Source: Deltaproteobacteria bacterium
GTDB taxonomy: Bacteria; Myxococcota_A; UBA9160; JAFDDA01
Assembly: GCA_019311105.1 (NCBI GenBank)
Contig: JAFDDA010000005.1
Coordinates: 1-50,840 of the forward strand
Length of the DNA stretch: 50,840 bases
Direction: 5' to 3'
In this document: positions 18,054 to 29,402 of the stretch, piece by piece
Numbering within the stretch: the first letter of the stretch is position 1
How the letters are laid out: every line of letters begins with the position of its first letter
Program-made: the position numbers and the translations under genes
Notes under the pieces: generated by a model
The model's input: only the letters and a program-made list of their open reading frames with translations
What the model was told of the DNA's origin: nothing
Databases searched by the model: none

Positions 18054-19352
18054 TTATCGAGAGAACATGTCTAGACCGTCGAGACCTCCCTCGGCAGACA
18101 GGAAGGCGGTCAGAAAGACCAGGCTCAGCAGGGAGACCCCGACCAGCATTGCCAGAAACGGCGGCCAGCCCTGCGCCTCGATCAGGCTCCCGGCGAGGGG
18201 TGCGAAGATCATCGTCGTCCCGTAGCCGCACGCATCGATCAATCCGATGAGGACGCCTGACCGGGAACGGCCGAACTCGACCGAGAACACGCTCATCGGG
18301 ATGTAGTACGCGGGAGATACGGCGAATCCGAAGACGAACGTGGCCACGACTGCCACGCCGAGTGCGGCGGCCTGCTCGAGCTGCAGCTCGGGCAGGCCGA
18401 GCAGGACGCCCACCGCGAGCGCACTGGTCGCCAGGAGCGCAGCGACGACACCGACCCGCTGGCGACCGCCTAGCCGATCGTAGACGACTCCACCGACGAG
18501 GACGGACAAGAACGAGCCCGTGGGAAAGGCGCTCGATGCAAAGCCCGCTGCGGCGGCGTCGAGGGCGTGGACCTCGCTCATGTAGAGCGGAAGGAAGCTC
18601 AGGAACTCCATCTGGAGCGTGAGGGCGGCGATGGAGAGACAGATGAGCCGCACTCGGCTGCTTCGCGCAAAGAACGCGAGGGTGGACCGCAAGCTGTCTG
18701 CCCAGACCCTCGAAGACGGCTCGGGCCCTTCCCCGTCGGCCGTCGCGGGCGCTTCCAGGCCCACGCTCGCAGGCGACTCCTTCAGCGCGAAGAAGCACAC
18801 GAGGAGGATGGCAAACGTGAGGGCACCGGCCACGAAGAACAGCCCTCGCCAGGGGAGGAACGTGAGTAAGCCGGCCAGGAGGAGGCTGGAAAGGACGCTG
18901 CTCGCACGGGAGCTCGTCGAGATGATCCCCCAGATCCGTCCCAAGCGGCCGGTCTCGAACCACGCCCCGATCGTCTTCGCCATCGCAGGCCAGCCCGCGG
19001 CCTTGGTCAGCTGTGCCGCGAAGTTCAGCAGCATGAAGAGGGCGTGTGCCGAGGACAAGCCGAAGGCGACGGTCGCCACCGCCATGGAGGCCAAGGCGAA
19101 CAAGAAGAGCCGCCGGCCACCGAGAGAGTCCGCGACGACGCCATAGAGCAGCTTCCCGGCCAGAGCTCCGGCAGCGCCCCAACCGAGCAGGGCGCCAAAG
19201 CTCGCCTTGTCGAGCCCCAGGGCCGGGTCGGCGATCATGGCCGGCGCAGCGATCGGCACCGTGGTGCGGCAGAGGATGAGGCCGGCGTACCCGAGATAGA
19301 GGCAGCCAACCGTCGTCCACTCCCAGCGCAGCTTCGCTCTACCGGCCCCCAT
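18054..19352 (-). CDS. MFS transporter
   Basis: The 432-residue protein has about twelve hydrophobic segments and an MFS signature loop between helices 2 and 3 (LLYGVVADSLGGRRL). The first helix region (YLGYAGLILCRTTVPIAAPAM) resembles the organophosphate/anion symporter branch, but I would not fix a substrate. Its ATG shares one base with the stop codon of the gene upstream on the same strand (TGATG), so the two are translationally coupled. It converges on the GT4 gene at 16807-17922. Confidence 0.88.
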   Translation of the reverse strand: MGAGRAKLRWEWTTVGCLYLGYAGLILCRTTVPIAAPAMIADPALGLDKASFGALLGWGAAGALAGKLLYGVVADSLGGRRLFLFALASMAVATVAFGLSSAHALFMLLNFAAQLTKAAGWPAMAKTIGAWFETGRLGRIWGIISTSSRASSVLSSLLLAGLLTFLPWRGLFFVAGALTFAILLVCFFALKESPASVGLEAPATADGEGPEPSSRVWADSLRSTLAFFARSSRVRLICLSIAALTLQMEFLSFLPLYMSEVHALDAAAAGFASSAFPTGSFLSVLVGGVVYDRLGGRQRVGVVAALLATSALAVGVLLGLPELQLEQAAALGVAVVATFVFGFAVSPAYYIPMSVFSVEFGRSRSGVLIGLIDACGYGTTMIFAPLAGSLIEAQGWPPFLAMLVGVSLLSLVFLTAFLSAEGGLDGLDMFSR

Positions 19353-20494
19353 CAGCCTCCGCCTGCCGGCGGGATGCGAGACCCGCCGTGGCGAAGCACC
19401 GAGTGAGAGCGCGGGAGCAGCAGATCGACCTCGCGGGCCACCTCCACGATCAGCTTCAGGTCGGGCAGCGGCGGCATCTCATCGGGTTCGATGGAGACCT
19501 CGCCGGGCACGGGCTCGGCGCGCAGGGCAACCTCCGCCGGGAGGGTGTCGGCGTCCAGGCCCTCGAAGAAGGAGGCGGGGAGATCGTCGCAGCGAAGCGA
19601 CGCCACCCCACCGGGCGGTGCCAGGGCATCGACCGGGCGGGAGTACCCGGGCCCCTCGACGCGTTTCAGGTAGATCGGCTCCGCGCCCCGGTTCTCGACG
19701 CGCACCGAGAGGACGGGTAGGCCGCCCGGGAGGTCTGGCTCTTCGCGCGTCACGAAGAAGTCGATCTGGCGATTGAGCTGGAGGCGCTCGGGATCCGTCA
19801 GGGGGAACCCATGCTCCGTCCGGGTGCGGCAGTCGAGCAGCTCGATCCAGTCCGCGGTGTAGTCCTTGAGGATGCCGGCCCGTTCCATCCACTGGCCGTC
19901 GCGGAGCTCCTCGACAACGACTCGCTTGCCGATGTAGCGCTCGAGCAGCGGCTCGTAGGCGTGGGCCGATGCGCCGAGCACGCTCTGGGAGATCTTGCTG
20001 AGCTGAACGTTCTGGGACTTCGCCAAGGCCGCCCCCCCGCTCCGTTTCGTCTGCGAGAGCGCCACGCCGATCGATTCGTTGAACGCGTCGCGAAAGGTGT
20101 TGAGCAGGTTGCGGGCGTTGCGCTGCCAGCGCCGAAGGAGCGTAGGCTGATACGTGCGAGCGATCTCTTCACGCCGGCGCTGCTTGTTCGAGTCCGACAG
20201 CTCGTCGTGGTAGCGGTAGATCACCTGAACCCTTTCGAGGAGGTCGCCGAGCAGGACGAAGCTGGTCTTCGGATGCCCCTGGGTGCCCAGGTGGGGTTGG
20301 GCGAAGAGAAGCTCGATGCCTCTCGAATAGACCGCGAGGCGCCCCCAGAGGAGGTCCCCTCCTTCGATCTCGATGGTGGTGTGAAAATCCTGGAAGTCCC
20401 GAAGGCAGAGGTCCCGTGCCCGGCGCCGGAGGTAGATGCCCACCAAGGCACTGACGAAGATCAGGACGAGGGTCAGCAGGAAGAAGTTCTCCAT
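19352..20494 (-). CDS. Conserved hypothetical membrane-anchored protein
   Basis: The protein has 380 residues, with a single N-terminal transmembrane helix (FFLLTLVLIFVSALVGIYL) followed by an Arg-rich stop-transfer sequence and a large soluble domain of mixed alpha/beta character containing LLWGRLAVYSRGIELLF, a helical segment with many Arg/Gln residues and a C-terminal beta-rich part. I do not recognise a named family or active-site motif. It is translationally coupled to the MFS transporter downstream, so the two probably act together. It diverges from merR with 85 bases between the two starts. Confidence 0.75.
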   Translation of the reverse strand: MENFFLLTLVLIFVSALVGIYLRRRARDLCLRDFQDFHTTIEIEGGDLLWGRLAVYSRGIELLFAQPHLGTQGHPKTSFVLLGDLLERVQVIYRYHDELSDSNKQRRREEIARTYQPTLLRRWQRNARNLLNTFRDAFNESIGVALSQTKRSGGAALAKSQNVQLSKISQSVLGASAHAYEPLLERYIGKRVVVEELRDGQWMERAGILKDYTADWIELLDCRTRTEHGFPLTDPERLQLNRQIDFFVTREEPDLPGGLPVLSVRVENRGAEPIYLKRVEGPGYSRPVDALAPPGGVASLRCDDLPASFFEGLDADTLPAEVALRAEPVPGEVSIEPDEMPPLPDLKLIVEVAREVDLLLPRSHSVLRHGGSRIPPAGGG

Positions 20495-20579: not shown

Positions 20580-20981
20580 ATGAAGGATCGACTGACGATC
20601 GGGGAGCTGGCCCGCCGCGCCAAGGTTCCGGTCTCGACCGTGCGCTATTACGAGCGATCCGGGCTCCTCCAGCCCAGCGGCCGCAGCGCCGCGAACTACC
20701 GGCTCTACTCCCAGGAGGATCTGCATCGACTGAAGTTCGTGCGCGCCGCCCAGGCCACGGGCTTCACCCTCGACGACATCACCCAGCTCCTTCGGCCTGC
20801 CCGCTGCGGCCGCGTCCAGGGCCTGATCGAGCACCGCCTCGAGCAGGTGGCCGATCGGATGCGCGAGCTGCGCCACGTCCGCCGGGTGCTCCAAGCGTCG
20901 CTCGAGGAGTGCCGGGAGCACGAAGAGACGGGGCGTTGTCGGGTGATCGACACCCTGAGCGCCACCGCAGGCAGCCGCTAG
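20580..20981 (+). CDS. merR: MerR-type mercury-responsive regulator
   Basis: The ATG at 20580 begins MKDRLTIGELARRAKVPVS, the first helix-turn-helix of the MerR family, followed by the wing motif VRYYERSGLL; the longer frame upstream is non-coding. The 133-residue protein has cysteines at 76, 111 and 120. Their spacing (35, then 9) is the same as Cys82, Cys117 and Cys126 of the Tn501/Tn21 mercury sensor MerR, as I remember those sequences. That makes Hg(II) or a similar thiophilic metal the likely inducer. A typical MerR-controlled promoter follows in the gap before the thioredoxin-like and MerB genes, so it most likely represses and activates them. Confidence 0.87.
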   Translation: MKDRLTIGELARRAKVPVSTVRYYERSGLLQPSGRSAANYRLYSQEDLHRLKFVRAAQATGFTLDDITQLLRPARCGRVQGLIEHRLEQVADRMRELRHVRRVLQASLEECREHEETGRCRVIDTLSATAGSR

Positions 20982-21079: not shown

Positions 21080-21373
21080 ATGAAGATCGAGATCCTCTAC
21101 TTCGACGGTTGCCCGAACCATGCGCCCACCGTGGAGCGCGCCCGCGAGGTCATCCGCGAGCTCGGCCTGGACACAGTGCTCCATGAGGTCGCGATCCACG
21201 ACCAGAGCGACGCCGAACGCCTGCGCTTCATCGGGTCGCCCTCCGTGCGCGTGGACGGCGCCGACATCGAGCCCAGTGCGGACGGCCACGGCCAGTTCGG
21301 TGTGGGCTGCCGGATGTACGGCAGCTCGGGCGTCCCGCCCCGGGAACTGATGCTCGACGCATTCCGGCAATGA
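21080..21373 (+). CDS. Thioredoxin-like protein of the mercury operon
   Basis: The 97-residue protein starts MKIEILYFDGCPNHAPT, with a thioredoxin-like first strand and a single Cys11 in a CPNH motif instead of CxxC. A middle IGSPSVRVDGADIEP segment is the cis-proline strand of the thioredoxin fold, and a second Cys lies in FGVGCRMYG. It is a small thiol protein that could carry or relay metal or reducing equivalents to MerB; that role is an inference from position. Its last codon overlaps the merB start (ATGA), so the two are translationally coupled. It lies directly behind the MerR-type promoter. Confidence 0.82.
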   Translation: MKIEILYFDGCPNHAPTVERAREVIRELGLDTVLHEVAIHDQSDAERLRFIGSPSVRVDGADIEPSADGHGQFGVGCRMYGSSGVPPRELMLDAFRQ

Positions 21374-22044
21374 GTGAAGCGACCGTACGCGAGCTGGTGG
21401 AAGGATGGTCGAGTGCCTACGCGGGGCTGGACCAGGCCGAGATCGACCAGCGCGTGCTCGGCTTCACGGCCCTGGTCCGGGCGATCGCAGAGCGAGGGGG
21501 AGCCCGCCCCGCGGACCTCGCCAAGGCCATGGGCATCTCCGCCGACGCCGCACGGGAGGCCTTCGAAGGGCTCGCCGCCGTGGGGCTCCAGGTCGACGCC
21601 GAGGGCCGTGTCGTCGGGGCGGCCCTCACGACCGAAGCCACGCCACACCGGGTTCGGATCGAAGCCGGCGACCGTTACGCGTGGTGCGCCCTCGACACCC
21701 TGTTCATCCCCGGGCTGCTCCGCGAGACGGCGGAGATCGAATCGACCTGCCCTGAGAGTGGAGAGTCGATCCGCCTGACGGTCGCACCCGACCGCTTCCA
21801 GGCCCTCGAACCGGAGGGTGCGTTCGTCTCGATCGTCGACCCGCGCGCTCTCGCGAACCGCCAGGTCGGCCCGGCGAGCCCGACCTGAAGCCAGATGCAC
21901 TTCTTCCGGGCCCGTGCGGCCGCGGAGAGCTGGCGAGGGGAGCGAGAGGGGATCGCGCTCCTCAGCGTCGCCGACGCCTTCGAGCTGGCGCGCGAGCACT
22001 GGGTCGAACGCCTCGACGGCGCCGAAGCCCGGCGCCGCGCGTAG
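21370..22044 (+). CDS. merB: Organomercurial lyase MerB with in-frame UGA (probable selenocysteine) at the catalytic position
   Basis: Conventional translation stops at the TGA at 21886-21888 after 172 residues, but the same frame continues as MerB up to a TAG at 22042-22044, giving 224 residues, the usual MerB length. Residues 104-112 read AWCALDTLF, supplying Cys106 and Asp109 (classical Cys96 and Asp99). EPEGAFVSIVDP follows, then PASPT, UGA (codon 173) and SQMHFF. Anchoring on HFF, the UGA falls on catalytic Cys159 of classical MerB. The C-terminal part (GIALLSVADAFELAREHW) matches the MerB tail. A hairpin lies just after the UGA. MerB cleaves carbon-mercury bonds by protonolysis; a selenol could replace the second cysteine thiol. 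The start overlaps the thioredoxin-like gene. The alternative is a nonsense mutation, but a diverged copy at 29149-29388 keeps the same UGA. Confidence 0.85.
21889..21934 (+). promoter_or_regulatory. Bacterial SECIS-like stem-loop after the merB UGA
   Basis: An inner hairpin pairs TCCGGGCC (21905-21912) with GGCCGCGGA (21918-21926), eight pairs with one bulged G at 21922, closing the loop CGTGC (21913-21917). An outer helix pairs GCCAG (21890-21894) with CTGGC (21930-21934). The apical loop begins 24 bases after the UGA and has G as its second base followed by U, all within what is known of bacterial SECIS elements recognised by SelB. The same hairpin with a swapped base pair follows the UGA of the second merB copy. 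Confidence 0.72.
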
Positions 22045-22121: not shown

Positions 22122-22394
22122 CTACGGAACGTGAATGTCAGGGCCGGCGGCAACGAGACCCGCGCCGCCGCTGACGGTCGCCTCTTCACCCGACACCGAG
22201 TTTCGGAACCCGGCGACGAGCCCGCCGAAGCTGGGGTAGCGGTGCTCGCGACCCACGACCAGATTGTGCGAACCCAGCCGATCCGTACACTCGAAATCAC
22301 CGGGCAGCTCGTTGTAGCCAATGAAGAGATTGCCCAAGCCGGTGACCCCGTTCGTGCCCCGGGAGCCGTTGCGGACGTGCACGTTGCAGCTTTC
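22122..22394 (-). pseudogene. Fragment of a repeat-type hypothetical surface protein
   Basis: The minus strand reads CNVHVRNGSRGTNG, then GLGNLFIGYNEL, SHNLVVGREH, FGGLVAGFRNSVSG and VSGG. This is the pattern of a family of long, left-handed-helix-like proteins in which NLVVG, GGLVAG and SVSGG blocks repeat. Only one turn is left here; upstream there is no signal peptide and downstream the VSGG repeats break off at a stop. I treat it as a truncated remnant. It lies antisense to the first part of the open frame at 22321-22977. Confidence 0.5.
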
Positions 22395-22977
22395 GGCCGT
22401 CGACCTGCACGCCGAAACTCCGACCGCCCCGGCGGTCGCGAACCTCGAAGCCTCAATCGCGCAGATCGAGCAGGCGATTGCAGCCGAGGAAGCCTCGATC
22501 GAGAGCCAGATCGAGGACATTGAGGACGTCGGAACGCCTTGGTTCGACAACTCCGACCACCATCCGATCATCGAGAAATTCCTCGCGTTGTGGGGCGACG
22601 CCAAGGCCCTCAAAGACCAGCTCCACGCGATCGGGAGGCTCCGCTGGGCCATCCGCGAATGGCGCCTGCAGATCCCGGGCGATGACTTCGGCTTCGGGGG
22701 CGGAGAGCGGTTCGACTACTACATGTACTGGAATCCCGAGTTCGAAGACGTCGACGAGATCGCAGCGAAGATCGAGAAGTCGCTCCAGCACTTGAAAGAC
22801 CTGCAGGCCGCTCTCGACAAGCTGAAGCAAGCCGTCGCAGGCCTCAAAGGCAGCGCCAACGCTCCCGGCCGAAGCAGCGTCATTCGGGGCGTCCAGGACG
22901 GCGCCCAAATCCGTCCGCGCCCACGGATGCCCAGCGGACCGCCGAACTCCGGGAGACCGCCCGGGAAGCGCTACTAG
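22321..22977 (+). CDS. Hypothetical coiled-coil protein
   Basis: The open frame can start at the ATG at 22321, but the first 20 residues are antisense to a surface-protein remnant and look non-coding; a TTG at 22384 is a possible truer start. From about residue 35 the protein is convincing: a heptad-rich helix (NLEASIAQIEQAIAAEEASI), a middle domain with HHPIIEKFLALWGDAKAL and an aromatic patch (ERFDYYMYWNPEFED), then a second helical segment (IEKSLQHLKDLQAALDKLKQ) and a Pro/Arg-rich tail. No signal peptide or family is recognised. It may itself be a 5'-truncated gene joined to foreign DNA near 22390. Confidence 0.5.
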   Translation: MKRLPKPVTPFVPREPLRTCTLQLSAVDLHAETPTAPAVANLEASIAQIEQAIAAEEASIESQIEDIEDVGTPWFDNSDHHPIIEKFLALWGDAKALKDQLHAIGRLRWAIREWRLQIPGDDFGFGGGERFDYYMYWNPEFEDVDEIAAKIEKSLQHLKDLQAALDKLKQAVAGLKGSANAPGRSSVIRGVQDGAQIRPRPRMPSGPPNSGRPPGKRY

Positions 22978-23096
22978 CCAGGCGGGGATGAAGTCGTCGC
23001 GGACTCGTGCTTCGACCGGCCCACAACCGAGCAGGCCCGCCTCCGGCGCTCCGGTGATAGGGTGTGCGGCATGATTTCTGGGAGGGCTCGGGCATC

Positions 23097-24134
23097 GTGA
23101 CGACGGAATCGACGGGAGCGGAGCGGTCGCCCGACTGGCTGATCCGACCGTTCGAGAAATCGAGGCTGGCTCCCGCCTGGCTAGGGCTCGGCGTGGCGAT
23201 CGCCTGGACGCTCCTCTTCGGCCTCGTCCACACGGTGGCCGACACCATCCTGGGCCCCCTCGAGGAGCCCTTCGGTTGGACCGTCGTGGTCGACGGCGTC
23301 TTCGTGGGCGTCCTCCTCGCGGGGCACGCCCATCTCTACCTGCGCGCGCTCTCCGATCTCCACGAGCTCGCGCCCATCCTGCCCGGCGGCGACACCGAGC
23401 TCGCACGTCTGCCCGATGAGCTCCCCAACCTCTCCGCGCCAATCCGCTGGTTGGCGACGATCATCGGAGCGGCCGGCGGCGTCCACATGGCACTCCACGA
23501 TCCGACCCTCTACGACCGCTACAGCCAGTTCGCCCAAAGCGACCCTCGGTACATCGCCTTCCTCCTTCAGAATGTGATCTTCGGCGGCATCAGCGCCCGG
23601 ATGATCGCGGCCGAAGTCCACATGACCCGCGCCTACGCCCGCCTCGGCGAGCGTGTCGAGGTCGATCTGCTCGATCTTTCGAAGCTGCGCGTGTTCGCGC
23701 GCAAGGGCCTACGCAGCGTGGTGGTCTGGGTGTTGGTCTCGTCGACCCTCTCCCTGTTCTGGGTAATCGGCGCAGCGGGGCAAGCGAACGGAAGCATGGT
23801 GTACGTGATGGTCGGACTGGTTCTGCTGGCCTTGGTCGCCCCGACCCTCGGCGTCCACCGAAGCATCGCGGCGGCAAAGGCGGCCGAGCTGACGACGCTA
23901 GCCGAGGCGATCCGCACTGAGCGCGCCAGCACACTGGCCCCGAGGCGTGCCGACGCCCCGGAAGACGCGCGGCTCGGCAACCTGCTTGCGTACCAGGCGT
24001 TCGTGCGATCGGTCCGCGAGTGGCCGTTCGACCTCTCGATCGTGGCGCGCTCGGTGCTGTTGATCCTGCTCGGCGCAGGCTCCTGGCTCGGCGGCGCGCT
24101 CGTCGAGCGCCTGCTCGACGTGCTGCTCGACTGA
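23097..24134 (+). CDS. Hypothetical multi-spanning membrane protein
   Basis: The GTG at 23097 follows a GGGAGG ribosome site; a GTG at 23064 would add 11 residues. The 345-residue protein has a short acidic leader and about six or seven hydrophobic segments (for example GLGVAIAWTLLFGLVHTVA, VVWVLVSSTLSLFWVIGAA and MVGLVLLALVAPTLGV). A soluble basic loop with many Ala, Arg and Glu residues precedes the last helix. I recognise no transporter or enzyme signature. It stands alone: about 120 bases separate it from its upstream neighbour and about 95 from the symporter gene downstream. Confidence 0.7.
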   Translation: MTTESTGAERSPDWLIRPFEKSRLAPAWLGLGVAIAWTLLFGLVHTVADTILGPLEEPFGWTVVVDGVFVGVLLAGHAHLYLRALSDLHELAPILPGGDTELARLPDELPNLSAPIRWLATIIGAAGGVHMALHDPTLYDRYSQFAQSDPRYIAFLLQNVIFGGISARMIAAEVHMTRAYARLGERVEVDLLDLSKLRVFARKGLRSVVVWVLVSSTLSLFWVIGAAGQANGSMVYVMVGLVLLALVAPTLGVHRSIAAAKAAELTTLAEAIRTERASTLAPRRADAPEDARLGNLLAYQAFVRSVREWPFDLSIVARSVLLILLGAGSWLGGALVERLLDVLLD

Positions 24135-27690: not shown

Positions 27691-28929
27691 ATGACAACTG
27701 CACCCCAACCCCAAGAAGCCACGCACGCCGACTCATCAACGTCGAACCGACGAATGCAAGGCTTCGAGCGTCTGCTCACCGTCTGGGTGTTCCTCTGCAT
27801 GGTTGCAGGCATCGCGCTCGGCCGGATTGCGCCGGGTCTTGCGCGCTCTCTCGACGGCATGACGCTCGATGTCGACGGTGCTCCTGTGGTCTCGATTCCG
27901 ATTGCGGTCTGTCTCTTCTTCATGATGTACCCAATCATGGTAAAGATTGATTTCACGGAGATCGTCGCGGCGGGAAAGAGCGTGCGGCCAGTCCTTCTAA
28001 CGCTATTCGTAAACTGGTGCATCAAGCCCTTCACGATGCTCGCCATCGCGAGTTTTTTTCTGGGCACCCTTCTCCTCGGATTCATCGGTCCGGAGGCGAC
28101 TGACCTCGTCAAGCTGCCGTTCGGCCTAGACCTCGCGGAAGGCGCGCAATACGGCGCCGGCCAGGTCGTGGTTCAAGATGGCGTCAAACTTCTCGAGGTT
28201 CCGCTTTGGCGCAGCTATCTCGCAGGCTGCATCTTGCTCGGCGTCGCACCCTGCACCGCAATGGTTCTCGTTTGGGGCTACCTCGCCAAGGGGAGCGACG
28301 GCCATACGCTCGTCATGGTGGCGCTCAATTCACTCACCATGCTCGTCCTCTACGGAGTCCTTGGCGGCTATCTCTTGGGCGTCGGCCGACTGCCCGTCCC
28401 CTGGCAGGCGCTCTTGCTGTCCATCGGCGTCTACGTCGCGTTGCCGCTGGTCGCCGGCTATCTCTCACGTCGGCTGATTATTCAGGCCAAGGGAGAGGAG
28501 TGGTTCAAGGAGAAGTTCCTGCATCTTCTCACGCCCATCACGATTGGTGCTCTGCTCCTCACGCTGGTGCTGCTCTTCTCTTTCAAGGGAGAAGTCATTC
28601 TCAGCAATCCACTGACGATTCTCTGGATTGCCATTCCGCTCACCATTCAGACGCTGCTCATCTTCGGGATTGGCTACGGGCTCGCCAAGCTGCTTGGGCT
28701 TCGGTACGCCGACGCCGCTCCCACCGCCATGATTGGTGCAAGCAACCATTTCGAAGTGGCAATTGCGACGGCGGTCATGCTGTTTGGGCTTTCTTCAGGA
28801 GCGGCCCTGGCGACAGTGGTTGGGGTTCTCATCGAGGTGCCGCTCATGCTCGTTCTCGTCCGGTTCTGCCTGAAGACTCAGGGTTGGTTTCCGCAAGAAG
28901 AAGCCGCGGTTGAAGCCGTCGCCGGATGA
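27691..28929 (+). CDS. acr3: ACR3-type arsenite efflux permease
   Basis: The 412-residue protein has ten hydrophobic segments and the bile/arsenite/riboflavin transporter fold. Family marks are the membrane Cys in [15 protein letters not shown] (the ACR3 conserved cysteine region), [13 protein letters not shown] near the N-terminus and [19 protein letters not shown] with the conserved Asn and Glu in helix 9. It exports arsenite across the inner membrane using the proton gradient. The coding sequence is visibly richer in A and T at third positions than its neighbours, and the gene lies between a tRNA-derived scar and a truncated merB, so it was probably acquired. No arsR or arsC is present here. 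Confidence 0.92.
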
Positions 28930-29148: not shown

Positions 29149-29388
29149 CTAGGCCCCCGGTTCCGACTGCGACCCGCCCGCTCGAATTCGCATGGGGAGG
29201 CTGGAAACCTCACGTTTCGGCCCGTCTTGAACGCACGACCAATGCTCCCGCACGAGTTCGAAGGCGTCGACGAGGCTCATCGAGACCACGCCTTCTCGCC
29301 CCGCGACCCACTCGTCCGCCGCCTCACGGGCGCGGAAGAAGTGCATCTGGCTTCACGTGGGGCTCGCCGGTCCTAGCTGCCGCGAAGA
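29149..29388 (-). pseudogene. Truncated second merB with the same in-frame UGA
   Basis: On the minus strand the frame reads SSRQLGPASPT, then UGA (complement of 29353-29355), then SQMHFFRAREAADEW and GVVSMSLVDAFELVREHW, ending at a TAG at 29149-29151. This is the C-terminal part of a MerB paralogue of the gene at 21370-22044. The stretch PASPT-UGA-SQMHFFRAR is identical in protein to that copy, although codons differ (CCC ACG against CCG ACC) and later residues have diverged clearly. The N-terminal two thirds, with the Cys/Asp pair, are missing: the fragment runs straight into the 3' end of the nitronate monooxygenase gene. It is almost surely non-functional now, but its UGA and hairpin are independent evidence that the ancestor used UGA as a sense codon. 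Confidence 0.75.
29308..29352 (-). promoter_or_regulatory. Second SECIS-like stem-loop, in the merB remnant
   Basis: Reading the minus strand after the UGA, TCCGCGCC (29336-29329) pairs with GGCGGCGGA (29323-29315) around the loop CGTGA, with a bulged G (29319) at the same place as in the 21889-21934 element and the same 24-base distance from UGA to loop. One G-C pair of the first hairpin is here a C-G pair; both changes are synonymous (Arg CGG to CGC, Ala GCC to GCG). A short outer pairing CCA/TGG also remains. Confidence 0.65.
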
Positions 29389-29402
29389 CCCGCCAGGGAG
29401 AA

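Follow-up and report, generated by a model that had tools for sequence, protein, structure and literature searches.

A predicted selenocysteine form of the organomercurial lyase MerB in a deltaproteobacterium

The merB reading frame and its surroundings

The window, by which we mean the whole 50,840-nucleotide stretch of DNA that was analysed, carries on its plus strand a MerR-type regulator gene (20580–20981), a DF family gene (21080–21373), and a gene for a predicted organomercurial lyase, merB, with an in-frame UGA (21370–22044). The ordinary open reading frame from 21370 ends at 172 amino acids (P0002 in the protein search), which is the truncated product that gene callers had been expected to report. 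Reading TGA as selenocysteine gives 224 residues, with a single UGA at codon 173 (21886–21888, plus strand). The read-through protein has the MerB fold; it matches the Pfam profile PF03243 at 1.1e-29 and 103.3 bits, above the gathering score of 27 bits, and the match (residues 86–209) spans the UGA. Thus, the gene is MerB on both sides of the codon, as originally predicted. A phmmer comparison with solved MerB (6.7e-27 to 3f2g and 2.8e-26 to 1s6l) places the UGA residue on Cys159, and Cys106 and Asp109, counted along the printed chain, on Cys96 and Asp99. The prediction of these three positions is therefore borne out: two members of the catalytic triad Cys96, Asp99, and Cys159 are present, and the third, a predicted selenocysteine, counts only if the UGA is read as such. 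With the NCBIfam MerB models NF009710 and NF033555, the protein scores 154.3 and 148.4 bits, below their curated cut-offs of 193 and 200.

The regulator upstream of DF and merB was identified by the MerR_1 profile (2.4e-20); against the TIGR02051 MerR model it reaches 110.1 bits, below the cut-off of 150.85. The DF protein scores 111.2 bits with NF049942 (cut-off 70) and is a Cys form, with the motif CPNH; PMC13188914 and PMC12013277 describe DF as a predicted selenoprotein. The TGA stop codon of DF overlaps the merB start in the sequence ATGA. An MFS transporter gene lies nearby on the minus strand (18054–19352), and its counterpart in another genome (L132, 8835–10091; 2e-155) adjoins the decayed merB of genome G059. 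Three open reading frames near merB are without any Pfam match (19352–20494, minus; 22321–22977 and 23064–24134, plus).

The motif around the UGA, PASPT-UGA-SQMHFF, had been reported to be kept in a second copy. The second motif is real (29339–29370, minus strand; 0 expected from 100 shuffles), but it belongs only to a 3' relic of another seleno-merB (29239–29402, minus strand; UGA at 29353–29355), and a second merB gene was rejected, the genome search having returned a single MerB match. The relic spans some 55 codons and immediately follows a gene for nitronate monooxygenase; from the UGA on, 48 of its 60 bases equal those of the intact gene. A gene for an ACR3 arsenite exporter (27691–28929, 365.7 bits) adjoins the relic.

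Recurrence of the UGA codon in the MerB family

A MerB match was found in 16 of 90 genomes of the class. Eleven of these are canonical merB genes (E < 1e-24), one of them (L021) cut by a contig end, and all carry exactly one in-frame TGA, at the Cys159 column. The remaining five are a decayed copy (L027) and four distant genes, of which L030 has no TGA and the MerB-like L028, L029, and L031 have two each. In a draw of 377 genomes from the phylum, canonical matches from beyond the class number three (L033–L035), and all of them carry Cys. Two Chloroflexota records, Dehalococcoidia UBA1123 and a SAR202 bacterium, have the motif CAT-UGA-TGMHFF. The protein search gave 143 matches, of which the best 120, including the window's own protein, were listed. 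Among the 119 listed non-self homologues, 113 end just before the UGA residue, a pattern from which we infer their stop codon, as protein sequences alone were compared; 4 end otherwise, and 2 have Cys. These two are metagenomic proteins (P0005 and P0006) with the motif PASPT-C-SQMHFF, and they group, with a support of 99, with one of the 113 shortened proteins (P0019) at 86% and 88% identity.

Sixty-seven MerB-family sequences were then compared at both cysteine columns. The set holds 14 of the 16 class matches (without L027 and L030), 3 of 11 further phylum matches, 46 of 52 matches of a further search (six fragments or broken rows were left out), and 4 of 14 loci of another search (eight repeat contigs, L056, and L057 were left out). 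The phylum matches dropped are L036–L043, seven of which lack the cysteine pair, while L037 was read at the wrong place. Column 159 holds UGA in 42 sequences, Cys in 24, and is empty in one, in agreement with the expectation that homologues would have UGA or Cys at this place; column 96 holds Cys in 49 and UGA in 18. Elsewhere in the examined part of the domain, a single further in-frame TGA occurs, on the N-terminal side in L075. The in-frame UGA thus aligns with Cys of homologues, as is expected of a bacterial selenoprotein. When both columns were masked for tree building, the 13 canonical seleno-MerB sequences formed one group, at an SH value of 94, which is below the threshold of 95, and all 13 retain the C-D-U pattern. 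The states Cys-Cys, Cys-UGA, and UGA-UGA require 9 changes on the tree, compared with a mean of 31.3 for shuffled states.

The residues 3' of the UGA are under purifying selection: the median dN/dS is 0.28 behind the UGA (56 of 78 pairs usable) and 0.19 for the segment from Cys96 on (69 of 78). Is the UGA then a true stop codon, the result of a nonsense mutation, of faulty assembly, or of gene decay? Decayed copies do exist, namely the relic in the window and L027 in G059. The same codon nevertheless recurs in other assemblies, and none of the 11 canonical merB genes of the class lacks it; the coding constraint behind it also speaks against termination. Judging from the assemblies compared, the TGA is no local error, because it recurs in separate assemblies.

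In 18 of the 67 sequences, UGA occupies both catalytic columns (L028, L029, L031, L085, L087–L091, L093, L098, L100–L103, and L105–L107), and UGA at column 96 was never seen without UGA at column 159 (18/18). The third catalytic residue of these double-UGA genes is Glu in 11, Asp in 5, and Gly in 2. Usually there is a SECIS-like hairpin behind each UGA; an energy of −8 kcal/mol is reached by 13 of the 18 behind UGA96 and by 13 behind UGA159, and L100 has no hairpin behind UGA159. Two sister sequences, L083 and L093, differ at column 96, with Cys in one and UGA in the other. Among the best 120 relatives of L087 listed (P0244–P0363), the sequence patterns show Trp at both places in 23, Cys at column 96 with no match at column 159 in 56, and another pattern or none in 41. 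The Trp is apparently the product of a gene-call table in which TGA is Trp.

The downstream hairpin and the selenocysteine machinery

Behind the UGA lies a SECIS-like hairpin (21905–21926, plus strand) of 8 pairs with one bulge, with the loop CGUGC (21913–21917) 24 nt from the codon. Its folding energy is −13.5 kcal/mol, a value reached by none of 100 synonymous shuffles. The bSECIS model, as set out in PMC13188914, has a hairpin 16–37 nt behind the UGA, a loop of 3–9 nt whose first two positions include a G, a stem of 4–16 bp, and an energy of −7.5 or lower, and the hairpin at this place fits that description in its distance, loop, stem, and energy. Relatives have CGUGA or CGGGA as the loop at the same position. 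Over 14 sequences, the proposed pairing holds in 92.9% of cells, compared with 30–64% for slid pairings, and its covariation score exceeds those of all 500 shuffles. On two of the five measures some shuffles reach the observed value: 95 of 500 do so for the number of pairs in which both partners change, and 24 of 500 for that of further pair types. The failing cells (3 at pair 24–37 and 2 each at 22–39 and 27–33) are partly due to shifts of the bulge or of the register.

A loose, unrestricted energy test at −7.5 kcal/mol hardly separates UGA from Cys sites in this GC-rich DNA, as it is passed by 41 of 42 UGA159, 19 of 24 Cys159, 18 of 18 UGA96, and 42 of 49 Cys96 sites. A narrowed loop rule (G-G or G-U near the loop start, 16–30 nt), with a synonymous-codon null added, was chosen after the outcome of the loose test had been seen. 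Under it, 34 of 42 UGA159 and 13 of 18 UGA96 sites have a hairpin of −8 kcal/mol or better, compared with 1 of 24 Cys159 and 5 of 49 Cys96 sites. The native energy is attained by no more than 5 of 100 synonymous shuffles at 26 of 42 UGA159, 11 of 18 UGA96, 1 of 24 Cys159, and 1 of 49 Cys96 sites. The hairpin is selected beyond the protein sequence, and this too argues against a true stop, a reading that we regard as extremely improbable.

The genome that carries the window was expected to encode the selenocysteine machinery, and it does: selA, selB, and selD are present, at 525, 274, and 279.4 bits, each over its cut-off, together with two genes for tRNA-Sec. The two tRNA-Sec genes have equal scores and are separated by about 1.27 kb, close to the end of a contig (L001, 703–801 and 1974–2072 of G000:C140); the pair may be a real duplication or an effect of assembly. 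A tRNA-Sec match below 1e-10 was obtained in 9 of the 11 carrier genomes and in both Chloroflexota genomes; at this threshold, no clear match was seen in the remaining two of the 11 carriers searched, G029 and G036.

These results bear on whether the UGA is read as an amino acid other than selenocysteine, whether by a change of the code, by near-cognate Trp read-through, or by Cys insertion through the Sec machinery. Metagenome gene calls do have Trp at such places, in the 23 of 120 listed members of the related L087 family, as would be expected from a table with TGA = Trp. On the other side, column 159 holds only UGA or Cys, the genome has selA, selB, selD, and tRNA-Sec, and UGA continues to act as a stop codon within the operon, because DF ends in TGA; a general reassignment of UGA was rejected for the same reason. 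Insertion of another amino acid is therefore very unlikely. Taking the alignment, recurrence, and hairpin together, we consider it highly probable that 21370–22044 encodes a selenocysteine MerB, in which the UGA at the Cys159 position would be decoded as selenocysteine under the guidance of the hairpin and whose product would cleave organomercurials.

Mercury linkage, proposed mechanism, and known selenoproteins

Relatives place the gene among mercury genes. In genome G068, the order is merR, merF, merA, merT, a gene for an HMA protein (merP-like), and merB with the UGA; the MerA scores 525.9 bits with TIGR02053, over the cut-off of 454.45, and has the C-terminus LSCCAS. In G066, the order is merR, an unknown protein, merF, DF, and merB. 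DF lies upstream of seleno-merB in 6 of 11 carriers; in the window and in G063, G042, G066, and G082 it is the immediate neighbour, and in G039 the distance is about 600 bp. The contigs of G031 and G036 break off at merB or shortly before it. The six DF copies beside seleno-merB (window 21080–21373, L032, L121, L122, L124, and L125) are Cys forms, with CPNH or CPHL.

Could this be a MerB-fold selenoprotein with another role, acting on a different organometal or simply binding one? The scores below the NCBIfam cut-offs would fit such a protein, as would the ACR3 arsenite exporter gene about 6 kb from merB within the window. Furthermore, no MerA over the cut-off was found in the carrier's own genome, which is 89.9% complete, a result that also counts against a complete mercury pathway there; the best match of that search is rather an FAD-containing oxidoreductase. 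Set against these points are the C-D-U residues kept in the 13 compared clade members, the complete mer operon of G068, and the MerF gene beside merB in G066, so a non-organomercurial substrate is unlikely, if less remote than the other readings of the codon considered above.

The proposed mechanism for the selenocysteine MerB starts with the insertion of selenium at the UGA, which would give Sec173. We take the roles of the MerB triad to apply here, so that R-Hg+ would be held between Cys106 and Sec173 and Asp109 would protonate the leaving carbon. The selenolate, with its low pKa and tight mercury binding, could speed capture or cleavage. The upstream DF protein might then take over the Hg(II), although this step is a guess.

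The original prediction knew of no described selenocysteine form of MerB. MerB-like selenoproteins, however, already appear in reviews: PMC13188914 and PMC9312934 include SaoL, a MerB-like organometallic lyase with the motif CU, and PMC7435645 counts 'Organic mercuric lyase MerB2' among predicted selenoproteins. For canonical MerB with Sec at Cys159, no paper was found in the open-licence literature, as far as its texts were accessible, and MerB and mercury terms had no match in PMC5029168. The window protein is set apart from SaoL by its profile score (26.9 bits with NF040728, cut-off 140), and the comparison with 'MerB2', which shares the MerB name and the predicted Sec, is by name alone; both belong to what looks like another subfamily. 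The other mercury-related predicted selenoproteins listed, namely mercuric transport proteins, HgcA, and HgcB, are of other families, and none is the C-Hg lyase. From the MerB of PF03243 and the structures 1s6l, 3f2f, and 3f0o, the window protein differs by the UGA in place of Cys159 and Ser in place of Cys160, and further by the SECIS-like hairpin of its gene and its scores below both NCBIfam cut-offs.

The window gene seems to represent one among several Sec states in which MerB occurs naturally. It is likely that the family has repeatedly exchanged catalytic Cys and Sec, at Cys159 alone in the window gene and at both Cys96 and Cys159 in Chloroflexota and three genomes of the class, the latter giving a double-Sec lyase with a Sec-Glu/Asp-Sec or, rarely, Sec-Gly-Sec site. 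The recurrence of this UGA in relatives from two phyla makes it probable that selenium was recruited for mercury detoxification. In gene calls, such genes either shrink to fragments of about 172 residues or have Trp in place of the UGA, and surveys that depend on a full-length MerB would therefore overlook them. If our reading is true, nature has a selenium counterpart of the organomercurial-breaking enzyme, and at least one uncultured bacterium has its gene in a mer operon. The review PMC11639659 describes selone mimics of organomercurial lyases as reacting faster than their sulfur analogues. As the same fold would exist in nature in Cys-Cys, Cys-Sec, and Sec-Sec forms, the contribution of selenium to C-Hg cleavage would be directly testable.
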